DNA from: Clostridia bacterium
Lineage (GTDB): Bacteria > Bacillota > Clostridia > Oscillospirales > Acutalibacteraceae
DNA length: 42,074 nucleotides
Direction of reading: 5' to 3'
Assembly (NCBI GenBank): GCA_017403185.1
Contig: JAFQON010000034.1
Span: 1-42,074, forward strand
A program made the position numbers and the translations under genes. Of this stretch, positions 12,505 to 20,752 are shown piece after piece; positions within the stretch are counted from its first letter, which is position 1; the number at the start of each line of letters is the position of its first letter. The notes beneath the pieces are model-generated. The model was not told the origin of the DNA, did no database searches, and saw only the letters and a program-made list of their open reading frames with translations.

Positions 12505-12534
12505 TTGACATTCAAATAATGGCAGGATTATACT
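12505..12534 (+). promoter_or_regulatory. SigA promoter of the leader-ABC exporter operon
   Basis: TTGACA (12505-12510), 18-base spacer, TATACT (12529-12534), 12-17 bases after the reductase stop and just upstream of the leader ORF. Confidence 0.8.
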
Positions 12535-12564
12535 ATATTAAAAATATGAAAGGAGGCGGACACA

Positions 12565-12624
12565 ATGACAATGAAAATGAACGATAACAAGAAAACGGAA
12601 GTGTTGTGCCCGCAGTCTGAGTAA
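12565..12624 (+). CDS. 19-codon leader peptide ORF of the ABC exporter operon
   Basis: A 19-residue ORF, MTMKMNDNKKTEVLCPQSE, with a near-perfect ribosome binding site (AAAGGAGG at 12549-12556, 8 bases before ATG). It starts about 25 bases downstream of a promoter and is followed 31 bases later by an intrinsic terminator, and only then by the exporter gene. This is the layout of a translation-controlled attenuator, as known for bmrB-bmrCD in Bacillus subtilis. Codons 13-15 (12601-12607) can pair with the left arm of the terminator (12655-12661, 7 bp with two G-U), so a ribosome finishing the ORF would free the terminator while a stalled one could leave an antiterminator. That mechanism is inference. 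A small exported peptide is a less likely alternative. Confidence 0.65.
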   Translation: MTMKMNDNKKTEVLCPQSE

Positions 12625-12655
12625 TATTGCGGCATTTTGCGTGCAGAATCACAAG

Positions 12656-12687
12656 CAGCACTTTCGTTTGATGAAAGTGCTGTTTTT
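12656..12687 (+). terminator. Attenuator-type intrinsic terminator before the ABC exporter
   Basis: A perfect 10-bp stem (12656-12665 with 12673-12682), 7-base loop and five T (12683-12687). It lies between the leader ORF and the start of the first ABC gene with no other promoter seen between, so most transcripts should stop here unless antitermination occurs. A small hairpin at 12628-12645 lies between the leader stop and this stem. Confidence 0.8.
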
Positions 12688-12714
12688 ACATTTAATTAAA
12701 GGCGGTGAACCTTT

Positions 12715-15081
12715 ATGAGTAAAAAAAGGGAGAAAAAGCCCAAGCCCCCGAAGCCCGAAAAGGGCAAATTCCCGAAGCCTCTTCTCAGAGTGCTTGAGGA
12801 AGCGGGGCTTTTAACCGAAAATCTGATTTATTGCTGCACGGGCGACATGGATAACGAAGCCTGCTACTGCTCATCGTGGCTCAGCTTCGATGAAAAGGGT
12901 CTTTATATAGCTTTGGGTGACGAAGAAATCGTTAAATCCAAGCGAAAGAATCACAGACCCGACCCGAAATACACTGTCAGTGAAATTCAGAGCATTCCTC
13001 TTGAAGATGCGGAGTCGCTTGAAACGGAAAGATATGTTTCAACCGGCAGGCTCATAATGAAAAAAGACGGCGAGCAGATAAGCCTTGTCCGTTTTTCAAT
13101 AGGCAAAATTGCTCAGTTTGAAAATTTTGCGAGAGCATTCAACACCTACAAGAAAAACGGTGAGGCGGAGGTACCTGCTTCTGATGAGCCTGAAGAAAAC
13201 AAGTGCAAAAAATGCGGCAAGCCCTGCCCGCCCGGCAAGGATTTCTGCCCCAAACACAACAAAAACTCCTCAACCGCAGTCCGCCTTTTCAAGTTTTTCG
13301 GCGGATACATTCCGCAGATTATAACGATTATTGCAATTATGCTTCTCGGCACGGCAGTAACCGTGCTTATTCCGCAGATAAGCACCCGTGCGCTTTTTGA
13401 CGATGTTCTTTCAAACCCCGACGGCTTGCCCGTTGCGGAGCTTCTTAAGGCTCTCGGAGTGCTTGTGCTGTCAATATTCGGAATAAGATTGCTCAACACG
13501 ATTCTCACCGTTATTCAGCAGTACATAACGGGCGGAATCATGCCGAATGTAATTTATGACATCAAGGTCAAAATCTTCAACGCCATGCAGCGGCTTTCGG
13601 TTAATTTCTATTCATCAAAGCAGACAGGCTCTCTCATGGAGCGTGTTATCCGTGATGCCAACAATATTTATTGGTTTTTTGTTGACGGTCTGCCTGCGCT
13701 CATAATCGATATTGCAACAGTCATAGGTGTTATTGCAATTATGTTTGTTATGAGCTGGAAGCTGTCGCTCATAACCCTTGCGGCAGTGCCTGTGCTGTTT
13801 GCGTTTCTTACACTCGGTGATAAATTCTTCCGCTCCCTTCACCACAGAGCGTGGCTTTACGGTGCGAGAGTTTCCGCAATGGTCAGCGACAATATCAACG
13901 GTCAGCGTGTTATCAAGGCGTTTGCAAAGGAAGAGGATGAATTCAGCAGATTTGAAAAACTCAGCGGCGAGCATATGAAGGCGGAGCTCAAGCTTTCGCT
14001 CTCGGAAGCGACGCTTTTCCCGATTCTTGAAGTATTCGTGCTGCTGCTTTCAACCGTTGTGCTCGGCGCAGGCGGTGTGCTTGTTGCAAGGGGAGAGCTT
14101 TCAACGGGTACGCTTCTCAGTTATATAGTTTATCTCGAAATGCTCAGAGGTCCTTTTGACTTCCTTTCGTGGATTTCAAACTGGTGGGCAAGATGTGCCG
14201 ACTCGGCACAGAGAGTTTTCGAGGTCTGCGACGCAAAGCCCGATATAACGGAGAAAGAAAATGCGGTAAGCTTCGAAAATCTCAGGGGAGATATCGAGAT
14301 TAACGAGCTTGAATTTGAATATGAGCCTGCAAGGCCCGTTATCAAAAAGCTCAGCCTTGAGGTCAGGGCGGGCGATATGCTCGGCATCGTCGGCAAAACG
14401 GGCGCAGGCAAAACAACAATCGCAAACCTCATTGCAAGGCTTTACGATGCAAAAGAGGGCTGCGTTAAAATTGACGGCATTGATGTGCGTGATTTGAAGC
14501 TCACCGAGCTTCGCCGCAACATCGGTCTTGTTTCGCAGGATATCTACCTTTTCATCGGCTCTATTGCCGATAACATCAGATACGCAAAGCCCGACGCAAC
14601 CATGGATGAGGTTATTGCGGCGGCAAAGGCGGCATCGGCCCACGATTTCATTATGAAGCTGCCCGATGCTTATGAAACAAGGGTTGGCGCAGGCGGTCAG
14701 AAGCTTTCAGGCGGCGAAAGGCAAAGAATATCAATTGCGAGAACGATTATTCAGAATCCTAAAATACTTATTCTTGATGAAGCAACTGCCGCAATGGATA
14801 CCGAAACCGAGCGCAATATTCAGCATTCGCTCACAAAGCTCAAAGCGGGCAGAACAACCATTGCCATTGCCCACCGACTTTCAACTCTTCGTGATGCGGA
14901 TTATCTTGCCGTTATCAGCGACGGTAAAATTGTTGAGTACGGCACCTTTAAAGAGCTTATAAAGCAAAAGGGCGAATTCTACAAGCAATATAAAATCCAG
15001 TCAGAGGCTCTTAAGACTATCGGCATAGGTGTCGGCACGGGCGGCGAAAAGCCCGAGGAGGATGAACATGAACACAAATAA
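12715..15081 (+). CDS. ABC half-exporter with N-terminal domain and zinc ribbon
   Basis: A 788-residue exporter-type ABC protein, longer than the usual 580-620. Residues 1-25 are Lys/Pro-rich; about 25-150 form a mixed alpha/beta, PH-like domain; about 164-180 are a four-ligand zinc-ribbon-like knuckle (CKKCGKPCPPGKDFCPKH). The six-span membrane domain (about 190-480) and the ATPase domain follow: Walker A GKTGAGKTT (about 560), signature LSGGERQ (about 664), Walker B ILILDEAT with the catalytic Glu, and the switch His in AHR. Both ATP sites of this subunit look active. The partner is probably the half-exporter at 16452, which has the same kind of N-terminal extension. The cargo is unknown; DUF1854-linked ABC exporters elsewhere occur near cyanophycin genes. 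The start follows GGCGGTG. Confidence 0.87.
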   Translation: MSKKREKKPKPPKPEKGKFPKPLLRVLEEAGLLTENLIYCCTGDMDNEACYCSSWLSFDEKGLYIALGDEEIVKSKRKNHRPDPKYTVSEIQSIPLEDAESLETERYVSTGRLIMKKDGEQISLVRFSIGKIAQFENFARAFNTYKKNGEAEVPASDEPEENKCKKCGKPCPPGKDFCPKHNKNSSTAVRLFKFFGGYIPQIITIIAIMLLGTAVTVLIPQISTRALFDDVLSNPDGLPVAELLKALGVLVLSIFGIRLLNTILTVIQQYITGGIMPNVIYDIKVKIFNAMQRLSVNFYSSKQTGSLMERVIRDANNIYWFFVDGLPALIIDIATVIGVIAIMFVMSWKLSLITLAAVPVLFAFLTLGDKFFRSLHHRAWLYGARVSAMVSDNINGQRVIKAFAKEEDEFSRFEKLSGEHMKAELKLSLSEATLFPILEVFVLLLSTVVLGAGGVLVARGELSTGTLLSYIVYLEMLRGPFDFLSWISNWWARCADSAQRVFEVCDAKPDITEKENAVSFENLRGDIEINELEFEYEPARPVIKKLSLEVRAGDMLGIVGKTGAGKTTIANLIARLYDAKEGCVKIDGIDVRDLKLTELRRNIGLVSQDIYLFIGSIADNIRYAKPDATMDEVIAAAKAASAHDFIMKLPDAYETRVGAGGQKLSGGERQRISIARTIIQNPKILILDEATAAMDTETERNIQHSLTKLKAGRTTIAIAHRLSTLRDADYLAVISDGKIVEYGTFKELIKQKGEFYKQYKIQSEALKTIGIGVGTGGEKPEEDEHEHK

Positions 15082-15592
15082 TGCAAACACAATTTCACCT
15101 GAAACGCTCAGAACGGAATATGTGAGCCCCGAAACCTGCGTATTTTCAAAGAACGAAAACGGTTTTCTTGCGGCAACAATAAACGGCAAGGAGTATAAGA
15201 GAGTGATTCTCACCCGTTCATTGCCGCTGAGTTTTCCGTCGGATTACATCTGCATTTCGGATATCGAAAAAAACGAGCTCGGCATTGTTGAGCATATGGC
15301 GGATTTTCCGAAAGAACAGCAGGCGCTTATGAACGATGAGCTTGACCAGCGCTACTACTGCCCCGTTATCACAAAAATTGAGTCAATCAAAGAGAAAATG
15401 GGTCATTTTTACTTTGATGTTATGATAGGTGATTTCAAAAAGTCGTTTGCGGTGAGGGATATTTCAAAAAGCATCCGTCAGCACGGCGATGCGATAGACC
15501 TTGTTGATATTGACGGCAACCGTTTCCGCATTCTTGATTTTGAGGCGATTCCTTCAAAGAGCCGCCGCAAACTTGAGCCTTATCTCTATTAA
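15068..15592 (+). CDS. DUF1854 protein, exporter-associated
   Basis: A 174-residue soluble protein recognised as DUF1854 by its order of conserved features: the central FPSDYICISD, the D(E)LDQRYYCPVI segment, and the C-terminal IDGNRFRILD and SRRKLEPYLY. DUF1854 genes are regularly found next to exporter-type ABC genes, but the biochemical role is not established. Its start at 15068 overlaps the end of the first ABC gene by 14 bases and is preceded by GAGGAGG (15055-15061), so the two are translationally coupled. It is probably a cytoplasmic partner or regulator of the exporter pair. Confidence 0.75.
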   Translation: MNTNNANTISPETLRTEYVSPETCVFSKNENGFLAATINGKEYKRVILTRSLPLSFPSDYICISDIEKNELGIVEHMADFPKEQQALMNDELDQRYYCPVITKIESIKEKMGHFYFDVMIGDFKKSFAVRDISKSIRQHGDAIDLVDIDGNRFRILDFEAIPSKSRRKLEPYLY

Positions 15593-15618: not shown

Positions 15619-16422
15619 ATGAAGCTTGAACTTCGTGATGTTTTGATGAGAGGCAAATGGTACAAAGAAGAAGATTCCGAATATGAAGTGGAATATTGGC
15701 TTGAAAAAAGCAGTTTACAGCTTTTTTACACGGAAAATCTGATTGAAGAGTTTGGCTATAAAAACTGCGATGAAATCAAAAAATCAGGGCATTTTATACC
15801 ATTTTTCAAAACAGATATCATTGCACTTCAAAAAAAGTTTATAGAGAATTATCCCGATAAAGCTGTAGAAGAAACAATGAATGATATTATTAAAAATAAT
15901 AATTATGGATATAATTCAGGTTATGATGTTGCATTCAGAATATTAACTCAGGATTATGCAGAGTTCCGTAAATTTTCAGATGATTACTATGATTTTGAGA
16001 AAAAGCAGCTTTTAAAGGATGCAGAACAATGGTGCAAAGAAAATAATATTCCGTATTACACAGAAAATGACTCAGAACGGAAATTAGATCTCAGAAATAC
16101 ATTACTTTATGCTTTCGGCGGAGAGTGCGATGATGGAGAAGGTGGTTGGAAACCTTTTACTTTTTGGTTTTGCAGAGCGGATTTCCGAATTTTGGATCCT
16201 GCTGATATAAGTGTGTATTATGGTTATGAAAATGATGAGGATATTGCTGCATCAGGGCTTTTTATTCCATTGTTTAAAGTGAATGATGAGGATATGGACT
16301 ATGATGATTCCGTTGTTCTGAAAATAGCGGAACAGTGGGCTGTTGAAAACAATATACCTTACTATATTTCAAGGGACAGACCCGACCATTTGGGAAGTCA
16401 ATTTGAAGAAACTGAAATATAA
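15619..16422 (+). CDS. Uncharacterised protein with an internal duplication
   Basis: A 267-residue acidic, aromatic-rich cytoplasmic protein that I do not recognise with confidence. It contains two related halves: LRDVLMRG...FIPFFK...WCKENNIPYY (about 4-150) and LRNTLLYAFGG...FIPLFK...WAVENNIPYY (about 154-255). The segment FRKFSDDYYDFEKKQLLKDA (about 117-136), followed by WCKENNIPYY, vaguely recalls the C-terminus of UPF0158 proteins, which is weak evidence. The DNA is visibly richer in A and T than its neighbours, with AT-biased codons, which hints at later acquisition. It sits in the exporter operon between DUF1854 and the second ABC gene. Start at ATG 15619, 7 bases after AGAGGTG. Confidence 0.7.
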   Translation: MKLELRDVLMRGKWYKEEDSEYEVEYWLEKSSLQLFYTENLIEEFGYKNCDEIKKSGHFIPFFKTDIIALQKKFIENYPDKAVEETMNDIIKNNNYGYNSGYDVAFRILTQDYAEFRKFSDDYYDFEKKQLLKDAEQWCKENNIPYYTENDSERKLDLRNTLLYAFGGECDDGEGGWKPFTFWFCRADFRILDPADISVYYGYENDEDIAASGLFIPLFKVNDEDMDYDDSVVLKIAEQWAVENNIPYYISRDRPDHLGSQFEETEI

Positions 16423-16451
16423 TTAAAAGCACCATAAAAGAGGTGATAATT

Positions 16452-18602
16452 ATGCAAACAAAAGCGGCTTTTGACCTGACACAGAGCAGCGAGCTGTGCA
16501 GGGGAGAGCTGATATTTGAAAACGGCGTTATTTCCGCCGTTATAAACGGTGAAACCGTTTTCAGCCGCAGCCTTGACGGCGTTGAGGAGCTTATGCAGCG
16601 CACCTATGTCGGTTGCGGTATGCTTGAGCTTATAACCGAAAAAGAAAATTCGGAAATGGCAAAAAGCATCCCCGTCTGCCGTTTTTCAATGTCATGTGTT
16701 GAAGAGATCGGCGAATTCTGCAAGGTGGTTAACCATTATATAAAAACGGGTGAGGAAACCGAGCTTTCCCGTGAGGATTTCAGGGTATGCCCCAAATGCG
16801 GCAGGCACTTTATAAAGGGTATGGATGTGTGCCTTTTCTGTGTTGAAAAAAGCTATCTTTTCAAGCGCACTGTCGGTATGCTAAGAAAATACCTGCCTTC
16901 GCTTCTTGTTGCGGGTCTTTTGCTGACGCTTGCAACGGCATCAAATGCGCTTCTGCCCGTGCTTAATGCAAGGCTTGTTGACGGATATTTCAATAATCCG
17001 TCGGTGACGGGCGATGCGGCGGTGAAGGGTATTCTCAGCATTGTTGTGCTCATCGGCATAACGCAGGTTCTGGGTCAGGTGCTCAGGATTTTCAGCCAGC
17101 GCAGAACGAATGTTGTGAGCTGCAGAATGTCAAATGACCTGAGAATAATGATGTATGACAAGGTGCAGAGGCTTTCGCTCTCGTCAATGTCAAAAAAGAC
17201 GGCGGGCGATTTGATGAAGCGAGTCACAAGGGATACCGAAACGGTCAAACGCTTCGTTACCGAGCAGGGAATGTATGCGGTGCAGCAGCTCATAATGTTC
17301 ACGGCAATATTGATAATTCTGCTCAGCATCAGCCCTCTGCTTACATTGCTTGTGTTCATTCCCGTTCCGCTTGTTGTTATGGCAATCAGAGGATTCTGGA
17401 AATTCATTCATCTCCGCTACGAAAAGCAGTGGAGATGTGATTCACGCTCAAACTCCGTGCTTCACGATATTGTGAGGGGTATCAGGGTTGTAAAAACCTT
17501 CGGCAGTGAAGAGAGAGAAATCAAAAAATTTGATGCAATCTGCCTTCGTCTTGCTCAGATTTCAAAGAGCAATGAGCAGCTTTGGGCAAGAGTTTTTCCC
17601 TTCCTTTCGTTCTTTATGGGAATAGGCGAATTTTTTGTGCTTTATTTCGGCGGCAGAATGGTGCTTGAGGGCACGATAACGCTCGGCGAACTGCTTGAAT
17701 TCACGCTGTTCCTTGCCTATATTTACCAGCCGCTCCGCTGGGTATCGACCCTTCCCCGCCGCCTTGGCGAGGTTGCAACGAGCCTTATTAAGATTTATGA
17801 AATTCTTGACGAAAAAGAGGGTATTGAGGATTCTGAAAATCCTGCCCCCGCAAACCTGAGCGGCGATATAGTGTTTGATAATGTGCGCTTCGGCTACAAG
17901 GCGTATGAGCCCGTGCTCAGGGATATCAGCCTTACCGTTAAGCAGGGCGAAATGATAGGTCTTGTCGGTCATTCGGGTGCAGGCAAGTCAACTCTTATCA
18001 ACCTGATAATGCGGCTTTATGATGCCGACGAGGGCAGCATAACCGTTGGCGGTGTGGATGTGAAAAACATGAGCCAGAGCGCTTACCGTGAAAAAATCGG
18101 CGTCGTTTTTCAGGAAACCTTCCTTTTTGCGGGCACGGTTTACGATAACATCGCCTATGCAAGACCCAACGCTGAGCCCGGCGAGATAATTGCCGCAGCA
18201 AAGGCTGCGAATGCCCACGAATTCATCATGAAGCTGCCCGACGGCTACAACACCGTTGTCGGTGAGGACGGTCACAATCTTTCAGGCGGCGAAAGGCAGA
18301 GAATTTCAATTGCAAGAGCTGTGCTCAGAAATCCCGAAATTCTTATTCTCGATGAAGCTACAAGTGCTCTTGACCCTGAAACGGAAAGCTCCATTCAGGA
18401 GGCTCTTGCAAGGCTTGTGAAGGGCAGAACAACCTTTGCCATTGCTCACAGGCTTGCAACCCTGCGAAATGCGGACAGGCTTGTGGTTATTGAAAAGGGC
18501 AGAATTGCCGAGGTGGGCACTCACCGTGACCTGCTTATGCAGGACGGCATTTATGCAAAGCTCGTTATGGCTCAAAGGCAGACGGCAAAGCTTACCAAAT
18601 AA
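16452..18602 (+). CDS. ABC half-exporter with N-terminal zinc ribbon (partner subunit)
   Basis: A 716-residue exporter-type ABC protein. About 110 residues precede a zinc-ribbon knuckle (CPKCGRHFIKGMDVCLFC, about 113-130), then six membrane spans (about 145-430) and the ATPase domain: Walker A GHSGAGKST (about 505), signature LSGGERQ (about 610), Walker B ILILDEATSALD, switch AHR. The catalytic Glu is present, so unlike many heterodimeric exporters neither subunit is obviously degenerate. The shared domain plan with the protein at 12715 supports a heterodimer. ATG 16452 is chosen because AAAGAGGTG ends 6 bases before it; a GTG at 16443 lies inside that site. It is the last gene before a hairpin. 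Confidence 0.87.
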   Translation: MQTKAAFDLTQSSELCRGELIFENGVISAVINGETVFSRSLDGVEELMQRTYVGCGMLELITEKENSEMAKSIPVCRFSMSCVEEIGEFCKVVNHYIKTGEETELSREDFRVCPKCGRHFIKGMDVCLFCVEKSYLFKRTVGMLRKYLPSLLVAGLLLTLATASNALLPVLNARLVDGYFNNPSVTGDAAVKGILSIVVLIGITQVLGQVLRIFSQRRTNVVSCRMSNDLRIMMYDKVQRLSLSSMSKKTAGDLMKRVTRDTETVKRFVTEQGMYAVQQLIMFTAILIILLSISPLLTLLVFIPVPLVVMAIRGFWKFIHLRYEKQWRCDSRSNSVLHDIVRGIRVVKTFGSEEREIKKFDAICLRLAQISKSNEQLWARVFPFLSFFMGIGEFFVLYFGGRMVLEGTITLGELLEFTLFLAYIYQPLRWVSTLPRRLGEVATSLIKIYEILDEKEGIEDSENPAPANLSGDIVFDNVRFGYKAYEPVLRDISLTVKQGEMIGLVGHSGAGKSTLINLIMRLYDADEGSITVGGVDVKNMSQSAYREKIGVVFQETFLFAGTVYDNIAYARPNAEPGEIIAAAKAANAHEFIMKLPDGYNTVVGEDGHNLSGGERQRISIARAVLRNPEILILDEATSALDPETESSIQEALARLVKGRTTFAIAHRLATLRNADRLVVIEKGRIAEVGTHRDLLMQDGIYAKLVMAQRQTAKLTK

Positions 18603-18712: not shown

Positions 18713-20752
18713 ATGAAAAAAACGCTTGCATTGCTGCTTGCGGTGCTTATGCTTATCGGCTGCGTGCCTTTTGCAACGGCGGCAGAAACGGCATATAACT
18801 ACAAAATCTCAACTGCATTTTATGCCGAGGATTCAAACGGCGACTGGGCTGAGATAACTTCAGTGCCTGCGGGCAGTGATGTTAAAATGAGGGTTTCGAT
18901 TGCAACAAATTTTGTGTCGGGCCCCGCAACCGTTCTTCTTGCTTATGATAAGTCGGTGCTTTCCGCAAGCTCAATCCCCGAGGCGGCATCGGCATCAATG
19001 GAGCTTAACGGTGATTTTGATTTCACAAAAAAAATTCAGCAGGTTTCGGGCGCAAACGGTGCAAATGTTGCCAACAAGCAGCTCGGTCTGGGCAATATTA
19101 CGCAGGAGCAGTTTAACTCTTACGGCTTCCTTGCTTTTTCAATCCGCACAAACGGCTGCATTGTTTATGACAGCTCGGATTGGCTCTTTGAGCTTGATAT
19201 GACCGTGCTCAAGGGCAGCAGAGGCAAAACGCTTGAATGCTTTGTAATCCCCGAAACGGTGTGCACAACAGAGAACACACAGGGCTTTGTTGCCTTCCCT
19301 TATGCGGAGAGCACATCGTCATCACTTGCGGACCTTGCGGCGGCATATCTCTGGTATGAAAGCACGCCCGAGCTTGAAAGCGTTCAGGCGGCAGTTACAC
19401 CTTCTCTCACTGAGCGAAGTGTCACATGGGTTGTTGACGGTGAGGAAAAGGCAGAATACTATGAAATCGGCGATGCGATAACAGGCGAATGGGCTCCCGA
19501 AAAAGAAGGCTGTACCTTTATCGGCTGGTCACCCGAAGTTCCCGACACAATGCCCGACGAAAATCTTGTTTTCACCGCACAGTGGGAAGCAAATGAATAT
19601 ACAATCTCATTTGAGAACACAGGCGAAAGCGTTATCAGCCCCATTACTCAGGATTACGGCACAACCGTCGCAAAGCCCGAAAACCCCGTGAAAGCAGGCT
19701 ACACATTCGCAGGCTGGCAGCCTGAAATTCCCGATACAATGCCCGCCGAGAATTTAACAATAAGTGCAGTGTGGGCTGCAAACAGCTACAGTGCGGTGTT
19801 TGATGCCAACGGCGGCGCATTTGCAAACGGAGCGGAAAGCACGGTTGCAGAGGCTGTTTTCGGCTCTGAAATCACGGCACCCGCAGCACCTGAAAAGGAA
19901 GGCTATGTTTTTGCAGGCTGGGCGGTAACTGAAAACGGAGAAGCCGTTGATACTCTCGGCAAAATGGACAGTGTAAACGGCAAAAAGTTCTATGCAGTAT
20001 GGATTGAAGCAACCGATGTTGCTTACACTGTTGAAACCTACACAATGGATGTGAACGGTGAATATACTCTTGTGTCAACGGGTCATACGGGCACAACAGG
20101 CGAAAGCGTTGCCGCTGAGTACGCTGTTGCCGAAGGCTTTACACTCAATGACGAAAAGAGCGTTCTTTCAGGCGTTGTTGCCGCTGACGGTTCACTTGTT
20201 CTTAAGGTTTATATTGACAGAAACAAATATACCTTCAAAACCGTTGTTGACGGCGTTGAGAATTCGGCAGAATATTTTTACGGTGCGTCAGTAGCAAAGC
20301 CTGCAGCACCCTCAAAAGCGGGCTACACATTTGCGGGCTGGTCGGCACAGATTCCCGACACAATGCCCGCAGGTGATGTTACGGTAACAGCAAATTTCAG
20401 ATGTATTGCATCGGTTAAAATCAAGAATAATCCCGGTTCAAAAACAATCAATTACGGCGAAACTCTTCGCCTTACCGCAGAAGCGGCAAATCTGCCCGAC
20501 GGTGCGAAGCTTTACTGGTATGTAAACGGCGATAAGAAGGGCGAGGGCACAACCTTTGAGGTTTCACCTTCAAGCGGCAGCGTTGAGGTGAAGGTTAAGG
20601 TTGTTGATAAAAACGGCAGTGATTTTTCGGACGGTGAAATTTCAGATTCTCAGAGGGTTTCCGTTAACTCAGGCTTCTTCCAGAAGATTATCTCATTCTT
20701 CAAAAATCTTTTTGGTATGAACAGAACGGTAATCCAGCGTTTGTTCAGATAA
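18713..20752 (+). CDS. Secreted InlB-type B-repeat surface protein
   Basis: A 679-residue exported protein. Signal peptide at 1-23 (cut after TAA/AE). Residues about 30-220 form a beta-rich domain with cohesin-like features (a lone F...D strand pattern and SGPATVLLAYD); this is tentative. Residues about 240-560 hold four Listeria-Bacteroides/InlB B-repeats, marked by AGYTFAGW and IPDTMPAENL and ending in TAQWEAN-type strands. A further Ig-like domain covers about 565-650, and the protein ends in FFQKIISFFKNLFG, an amphipathic tail. No LPXTG signal is seen. The role is probably adhesion or cell-surface display. AAGGAGAG lies 10 bases upstream of the ATG. Confidence 0.82.
   Translation: MKKTLALLLAVLMLIGCVPFATAAETAYNYKISTAFYAEDSNGDWAEITSVPAGSDVKMRVSIATNFVSGPATVLLAYDKSVLSASSIPEAASASMELNGDFDFTKKIQQVSGANGANVANKQLGLGNITQEQFNSYGFLAFSIRTNGCIVYDSSDWLFELDMTVLKGSRGKTLECFVIPETVCTTENTQGFVAFPYAESTSSSLADLAAAYLWYESTPELESVQAAVTPSLTERSVTWVVDGEEKAEYYEIGDAITGEWAPEKEGCTFIGWSPEVPDTMPDENLVFTAQWEANEYTISFENTGESVISPITQDYGTTVAKPENPVKAGYTFAGWQPEIPDTMPAENLTISAVWAANSYSAVFDANGGAFANGAESTVAEAVFGSEITAPAAPEKEGYVFAGWAVTENGEAVDTLGKMDSVNGKKFYAVWIEATDVAYTVETYTMDVNGEYTLVSTGHTGTTGESVAAEYAVAEGFTLNDEKSVLSGVVAADGSLVLKVYIDRNKYTFKTVVDGVENSAEYFYGASVAKPAAPSKAGYTFAGWSAQIPDTMPAGDVTVTANFRCIASVKIKNNPGSKTINYGETLRLTAEAANLPDGAKLYWYVNGDKKGEGTTFEVSPSSGSVEVKVKVVDKNGSDFSDGEISDSQRVSVNSGFFQKIISFFKNLFGMNRTVIQRLFR
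19440..20400 (+). repeat. Intragenic InlB B-repeat array
   Basis: Three close copies and one diverged copy of a roughly 70-codon B-repeat. The nucleotide word CCCGAcACAATGCCC recurs near 19540, 19728 and 20355 and marks the end of each close copy. Confidence 0.7.

Follow-up and report, generated by a model that had tools for sequence, protein, structure and literature searches.

How is the ABC exporter operon of this Clostridia bacterium controlled, and does the short open reading frame (ORF) directly ahead of it take part? We addressed this question in a 42,074-nucleotide stretch of its genome (contig JAFQON010000034.1; hereafter, the window), for which an earlier note had proposed a leader-peptide attenuator. 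All the elements that this proposal named were found at the locus it gave, namely the promoter, a strong ribosome site, an ORF of 19 codons, an intrinsic terminator, and the gene for an ABC exporter. The operon does encode a two-subunit exporter, with ABC genes at 12715–15081 and ending at 18602, as judged from Pfam domains. The features are:

12505–12534, plus strand: sigma-70-type promoter TTGACA-18-TATACT, agreeing with the consensus at 11 of 12 positions
12549–12556, plus strand: ribosome binding site AAAGGAGG of the leader ORF, read from the sequence and kept in close relatives
12551–12566, plus strand: 5' arm of helix P1, made of the ribosome site and start codon (folding, relatives)
12565–12624, plus strand: leader ORF MTMKMNDNKKTEVLCPQSE of 19 codons, from the ATG at 12565 to the stop codon at 12622–12624
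12593–12607, plus strand: 5' side of the antiterminator (AT), within the ORF (15 contiguous pairs; permutation tests)
12603–12618, plus strand: 3' arm of P1, at the end of the leader ORF (folding, relatives)
12653–12687, plus strand: intrinsic terminator (T) and start of the U-tract (stem 12653–12685, 15 pairs)
12655–12669, plus strand: 3' side of AT, formed by the left arm and loop of the terminator (duplex computations)
12715–15081, plus strand: ABC exporter subunit 1 (ABC1), with ABC_membrane and ABC_tran domains (Pfam)
15071–15592, plus strand: DUF1854 protein (PF08909, 1.2e-29)
15619–16422, plus strand: 267-amino acid protein between the DUF1854 gene and the second ABC gene, without Pfam match
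16452–18602, plus strand: ABC exporter subunit 2 (ABC2), for which the listed ORF starts with GTG at 16443

Several properties of the operon and its surroundings are worth recording. The 267-amino acid protein (15619–16422) had neither a Pfam nor an NCBIfam match, and none was found for it in the loci fetched from 34 relatives. The N-terminal part of ABC1 (12715–15081) ahead of its membrane domain is a long extension in which a cluster of cysteines (CKKCGKPCPPGKDFC) was seen by eye. The score against the cyanophycin-associated ABC transporter family NF052233 was 524 bits, below the curated cut-off of 880 bits. A gene for a Listeria-Bacteroides (Flg_new) repeat protein, possibly surface-exposed, lies directly 3' of the operon (18713–20752). 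The genome also holds a second DUF1854 gene (L028), which adjoins another ABC transporter gene and outscores the window copy against the family profile. We found no mention of DUF1854 in the literature searched.

Could the RNA upstream of ABC1 fold as a switch? Three helices were identified in the window leader: P1, AT, and T. The earlier note had described a helix pairing 12601–12607 with 12655–12661; this helix exists, but its extent was understated, since the seven pairs are the inner part of a continuous AT helix (12593–12607 with 12655–12669) that is twice as long, at 15 bp. The energy of AT in the window is -17.6 to -20.7 kcal/mol, varying with the stretch supplied. P1 is an additional helix, absent from that description; it overlaps AT at 12603–12607, i.e., at 5 of the 15 nucleotides of AT. 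When the internal codons of the leader were shuffled, pairing with the terminator arm equal to AT arose in 4 of 3,000 trials, and pairing equal to P1 likewise in 4 of 3,000. A plain fold of 12541–12720 gave a z score of -1.6, and 13 of 200 shuffled sequences folded equally well. The fold of this segment is thus unremarkable; a single sequence proves little here, and the case rests on comparative evidence.

We looked for this evidence among close relatives. DUF1854 is present in 43 of the 45 genomes of the genus, and the 34 lower-scoring matches—of the window type or near it—were fetched for comparison. ABC1, DUF1854, and ABC2 occur together in 31 of these 34 loci. The region upstream of ABC1 was readable at 28 places, the window included, while four further loci were incomplete. 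The full layout of promoter, ribosome site, in-frame ORF, and terminator was found in nine of the 28, and 19 were without it. The ABC1 proteins of the nine are at least 79% identical to that of the window, as compared with ~67–70% for the 19 without leader. All nine leader-bearing copies keep both the ORF and its ribosome site, and their ORFs end in ...KVL[CRW]P... or similar. A covariance model built on these nine (R1) had no match before ABC1, at E values up to 10, in the 26 other loci that it was given. In 15 of the 19 leaderless loci, no more than 40 nt separate ABC1 from the end of the last ORF upstream, and in the remaining four the distance is 95–280 nt; this count is mechanical and noisy, as ORFs were also called across three of the leader regions. 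Since leaderless ABC1 genes mostly lie close behind an upstream ORF, the leader seems to accompany operons that have their own promoter.

Among the nine close copies, the terminator shows compensatory changes. The seven pairs between 12601–12607 and 12655–12661 are 88.9% paired in these copies, without compensatory change, a level that 435 of 500 column shuffles reach. Another candidate, a CCGC:GCGG helix just after the stop codon, was seen by eye in seven of the nine and was rejected, having no contact to the terminator. A DNA pattern of the ABC1 class occurs once each in eight of the 45 genus genomes, always before ABC1; it suggested an element specific to this locus, a view overturned by covariance-model matches elsewhere.

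How widespread is the leader? Rfam at the gathering score left it unmatched, finding only two tRNAs in the window, and a permissive E-value scan of the leader gave merely two chance-level matches. R1 had matches in 42 of 398 genomes of the family, spread over 23 of 135 genera (own genome included). A second covariance model, built on 46 copies (R2), had matches in 22 of the 45 genomes of the genus, none of which had more than four copies, and in 30 of 394 genomes of the order, the own genome counted in both. Matches in the class sample came from seven of 291 genomes: the own one, one of the order, and five beyond it, of which the four stronger have leader ORFs and the fifth is weak (E 8e-4). 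The phylum sample gave four of 398: the own genome, one of the order, and two weak matches outside the order (E 1.5e-4 and 6.6e-4) that lack a plausible leader ORF and that we took as chance. A second family copy in the window's genome lies before a GNAT-type gene (L111:338–484). Leader ORFs across the family are 16–40 codons long, and other leaders read MTM...RRAVLSVCD, ...IKSxAVLSAD, and similar. A DNA pattern of the AVLSV class was found in 42 stretches of named records; most of these are MAGs from the gut that were deposited under Oscillospiraceae or Clostridia, and the titles refer to uncultured Clostridia from ruminant and other animal guts.

Are the ORF and the helices maintained across this family? 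Of 121 alignment rows, 12 (L180 twice, L183, L184, L188–L192, L124, L177, and the minus-strand match of L127) were dropped before the ORF and AT counts, so that 109 rows, with 94 distinct copies, remained. In every one of these 94 retained distinct copies the ORF stays open from the modelled ATG, a result that is valid for retained copies only: L124 is truncated at its locus end, two further dropped loci, L183 and L177, contain plausible leader ORFs that would raise the total, and most of the other dropped rows had no plausible ORF or gene. The start codon belongs to the model and is hence found by construction, whereas the openness of the frame is not. A promoter-like site was present in the 75 nt before 91 of 97 family copies (from 103 distinct model matches), as compared with 115 of 2,000 random stretches of the window. 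Over 46 aligned sequences, 96.4% of the P1 cells are standard pairs, with double changes at three of ten pairs—one pair having 14 such cells (A-U to C-G and others)—and T shows double changes at 11 of 11 modelled pairs; slid controls were 44–49% paired over the whole structure. This alignment was fitted to the P1/T structure, and its pairing counts therefore lean that way.

AT is outside the covariance model, and we examined it in 23 representatives with dissimilar terminator arms. The AT segment paired with its own arm at a mean of -11.4 kcal/mol, as compared with -7.5 kcal/mol for permuted arms (z -6.4; none of 10,000 permutations as good), although the own arm was the best in its row for six of the 23 only. 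Four control segments gave z scores of -0.8, -1.7, -1.8, and -2.3, with 2,234, 473, 421, and 127 of 10,000 permutations as good, and three of the four likewise beat most permutations. The signal persisted in copies other than those of R2 (z -5.0, none of 10,000; 11 representatives of 58 copies that are identical to none of those in R2, though related to them). In L053, L060, L101, L103, and L108, pairing with the own arm was no better than with many other arms. The alternative pairing is therefore kept family-wide when measured against permutation, although the nine close copies by themselves do not suffice to demonstrate it. The earlier note had named a lack of conservation of the ORF, its ribosome site, and the alternative pairing as grounds for abandoning its reading; we looked for this lack and found all three kept. 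In 84 of 93 copies AT is no more stable than T, which means that AT must win kinetically. The distance from the stop codon to the end of the terminator match has a median of 57 nt with a CV of 7%, as compared with a CV of 22% for ORF length (93 copies); this constancy would fit a fixed geometry of ribosome and RNA polymerase. The stability, spacing, and P1/AT overlap counts are over 93 copies, one N-containing copy—itself one of the 23 AT representatives—being left out.

What genes stand behind these leaders? In 76 of 85 cases, a gene starts no more than 60 nt from the end of the terminator match. The 94 downstream ORFs included nine doubtful ones; the other 85 were clustered, and the counts represent nonindependent events. 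The genes were mostly GNAT acetyltransferases and ABC transporters. In the largest cluster (n = 35), ten of the 11 proteins scanned match GNAT families, and the other (L101) gives a sub-threshold kinase match alone. The second cluster (n = 23) is BLAST-linked to ABC1 and includes the nine ABC1 genes; the members scanned (window, L096, L103, L119, and L187) all match ABC families. Two of these lie outside the genus: the leader of L096 precedes an ABC1 relative that is 61% identical across 483 residues and 48% identical within the N-terminal extension; that of L187 precedes a remoter one with 32% identity (30% in the extension). Smaller groups gave GNAT proteins (L091, L146, L161, and L170), methyltransferases (L107, L109, and L121), a histidine phosphatase (L093), a LytTR regulator (L106), GrpB (L098), and an MFS transporter (L125), as well as types that are not resistance-like: PNP_UDP (L153), AP_endonuc_2 (L130), and HNH (L160). 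The Pfam-type scan returned no family for L084, L144, and L149 and sub-threshold matches alone for L147; L095, L114, L139, and L177 were left out of the downstream-gene scans. An NCBIfam scan of ten downstream proteins gave none at a curated resistance cut-off, so that "resistance-like" here is a reading of protein type.

How might such a leader work? Sequence comparison shows a promoter, a translated-looking short ORF, P1, AT, and T kept together in many genomes, and on this basis we consider that the leader most likely belongs to a new family of ribosome-mediated transcription attenuators that follow the logic of the trp and bmrB leaders. A ribosome moving through the leader at normal speed would clear or cover the AT segment and the 3' arm of P1, letting T form and turning the operon off. 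A ribosome slowed or stalled on the first codons would instead hold P1 open and leave the AT segment free; AT would then form and block T, and the ABC-DUF1854-ABC operon would be transcribed. With no ribosome present, P1 would form and take 12603–12607 from AT, and termination should be favored, in line with the reported behavior of bmrB when its leader is not translated. Masking by a ribosome that finishes the ORF, as originally proposed, would be partial: given the size of the ribosome footprint, such a ribosome should cover about 12603–12607 and not the whole 5' side of AT. What the leader senses is probably a disturbance of translation, such as one caused by ribosome-targeting compounds, and a compound of this kind is probably what the operon exports. 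The attenuator interpretation of the leader is supported by these comparisons; that leader translation controls read-through, and in which direction, we infer, as we do the inducer.

Does the ribosome or its nascent chain carry the signal? The first half of the ORF shows 256, 562, and 373 substitutions at the three codon positions; lacking a third-position bias, it gives no sign of selection at the protein level. For the 3' arm of P1 we counted 79 copies with frame 0, ten with frame 2 (the class of the window included), and five with frame 1. P1 is thus kept while frame and peptide vary, which suggests that ribosome occupancy, and not a particular nascent chain, is sensed. An arrest peptide specific to a drug or metabolite, whose nascent chain (...AVLSV or ...KVLCP) would stall its own ribosome together with a ligand, is suggested by the presence of VLSV in 40 of 94 leaders and of an AVLSVCD ending in 24 of 94. 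The conserved part of the ORF coincides with P1, however, and the same nucleotides form this helix, which can account for their conservation; moreover, the varying frame yields VLSV, VLRP/VLCP, or unrelated peptides, and we regard a specific arrest peptide as rather unlikely. A short peptide exported by the transporter, which the earlier note had offered as its alternative, might explain a conserved small ORF directly ahead of exporter genes, but leaders of this type are also found ahead of genes for acetyltransferases, methyltransferases, a histidine phosphatase, and a response regulator. In addition, the protein sequence encoded by the first half of the ORF is not conserved, and a modelled terminator stands between ORF and exporter; this reading is thus extremely unlikely. 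The frame differences between classes favor general translation sensing over either peptide. A metabolite riboswitch or protein-binding leader with an incidental ORF would likewise be a structured 5' region with a terminator; set against it are the Rfam results above, the ORF open in every retained copy, and an alignment in which no conserved, unpaired aptamer-like core was seen by eye, and we hold it to be very unlikely.

Another reading of the leader differs in its default state. Here P1 and AT would coexist as an end-stacked H-type pseudoknot, so that without ribosomes leader translation would be off, the terminator blocked, and the operon on, and loss of initiation would induce. The persistence of P1 across three reading frames is consistent with this, and for 24 of the 41 copies in the 18-codon class, removing the P1-arm bases costs AT no more than 1.5 kcal/mol (class median 1.3 kcal/mol); AT ends exactly at the 3' arm of P1 in nine of the 41, L084 among them. 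Such small losses make P1 and AT weakly exclusive in that class and leave room for a stacked pseudoknot. Against it, the free AT duplex extends into the 3' arm of P1 in 69 of 93 copies, including 31 of 41 in the 18-codon class and all ten of the frame-2 class, to which the window belongs and where the median loss is 6.9 kcal/mol; in the window itself AT drops from -19.9 to -9.9 kcal/mol. For bmrB, expression is also reported to have fallen once leader translation was abolished (PMC4191407). We consider an ON default unlikely on balance; for the window, a trp-like competition between P1 and AT is likelier than a stacked pseudoknot.

How does this leader compare with known systems? Attenuators of the trp type have three competing helices (1:2, 2:3, and 3:4), with the terminator last and an ORF over the first arms. 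The present leader shares these three competing helices, the terminal position of the terminator, and a leader ORF overlapping the first arms; in contrast, its arm 1 is the leader ribosome site itself, and transferases and transporters make up most of its targets. Inspection of the leader sequences by eye showed no run of codons for a regulating amino acid, such as attenuators of amino acid biosynthesis have. Three sequence traits of a ribosome-mediated attenuator are present: a leader ORF with a ribosome site, a terminator before the structural gene, and a conserved AT overlapping both ORF and terminator. The likeness to bmrB-bmrCD that had been pointed out holds for a leader ORF with alternative stem-loops and a terminator ahead of a two-subunit multidrug ABC exporter, as described for Bacillus subtilis (PMC4191407), but not for length (19 versus 53 codons). 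There, blocking translation of the 53-amino acid leader lowered bmrCD expression, and induction by antibiotics requires leader translation. bmrB is one described locus, whereas the present leaders, of 16–40 codons, stand before many unrelated targets and have a helix hiding their own ribosome site. Attenuators of mef(E)/mel, msrD, vmlR, and yxjB (PMC4335068, PMC10314930, PMC9226507, and PMC6851288) are likewise ribosome-linked and precede Gram-positive resistance genes; the available portions of these reports describe individual loci and report no sequence family shared with the present leader, and it is by these descriptions that we set them apart. The LEU element of Actinobacteria similarly combines a leader ORF with a candidate pseudoknot, but its described target is leuA, and in its base stem leucine codons are paired to the ribosome site of the downstream leuA (PMC1262725).

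In the literature searched, we found no description of this leader family, of its breadth, or of a helix that locks the leader's own ribosome site. The principle of attenuation by a leader ORF is already known, but here one recognizable leader family is reused before many unrelated genes. If the leaders respond to ribosome inhibition, the family would mark genes with which these bacteria counter translation inhibitors, among them those for acetyltransferases, exporters, and DUF1854 proteins, and the leader would serve as a sequence handle for finding such genes. With this family, sensing of a specific peptide could also be cleanly distinguished from sensing of translation as such. We tentatively consider one further possibility: that these leaders are a single widespread RNA device sensing general translation capacity, in which P1 locks the leader ribosome site and, in many members, stacks on AT as a pseudoknot, so that a loss of ribosome loading by any cause would turn the leader off and the gene on. 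If this were true, acetyltransferases, exporters, and methyltransferases would form a common translation-stress regulon in many uncultured gut bacteria.
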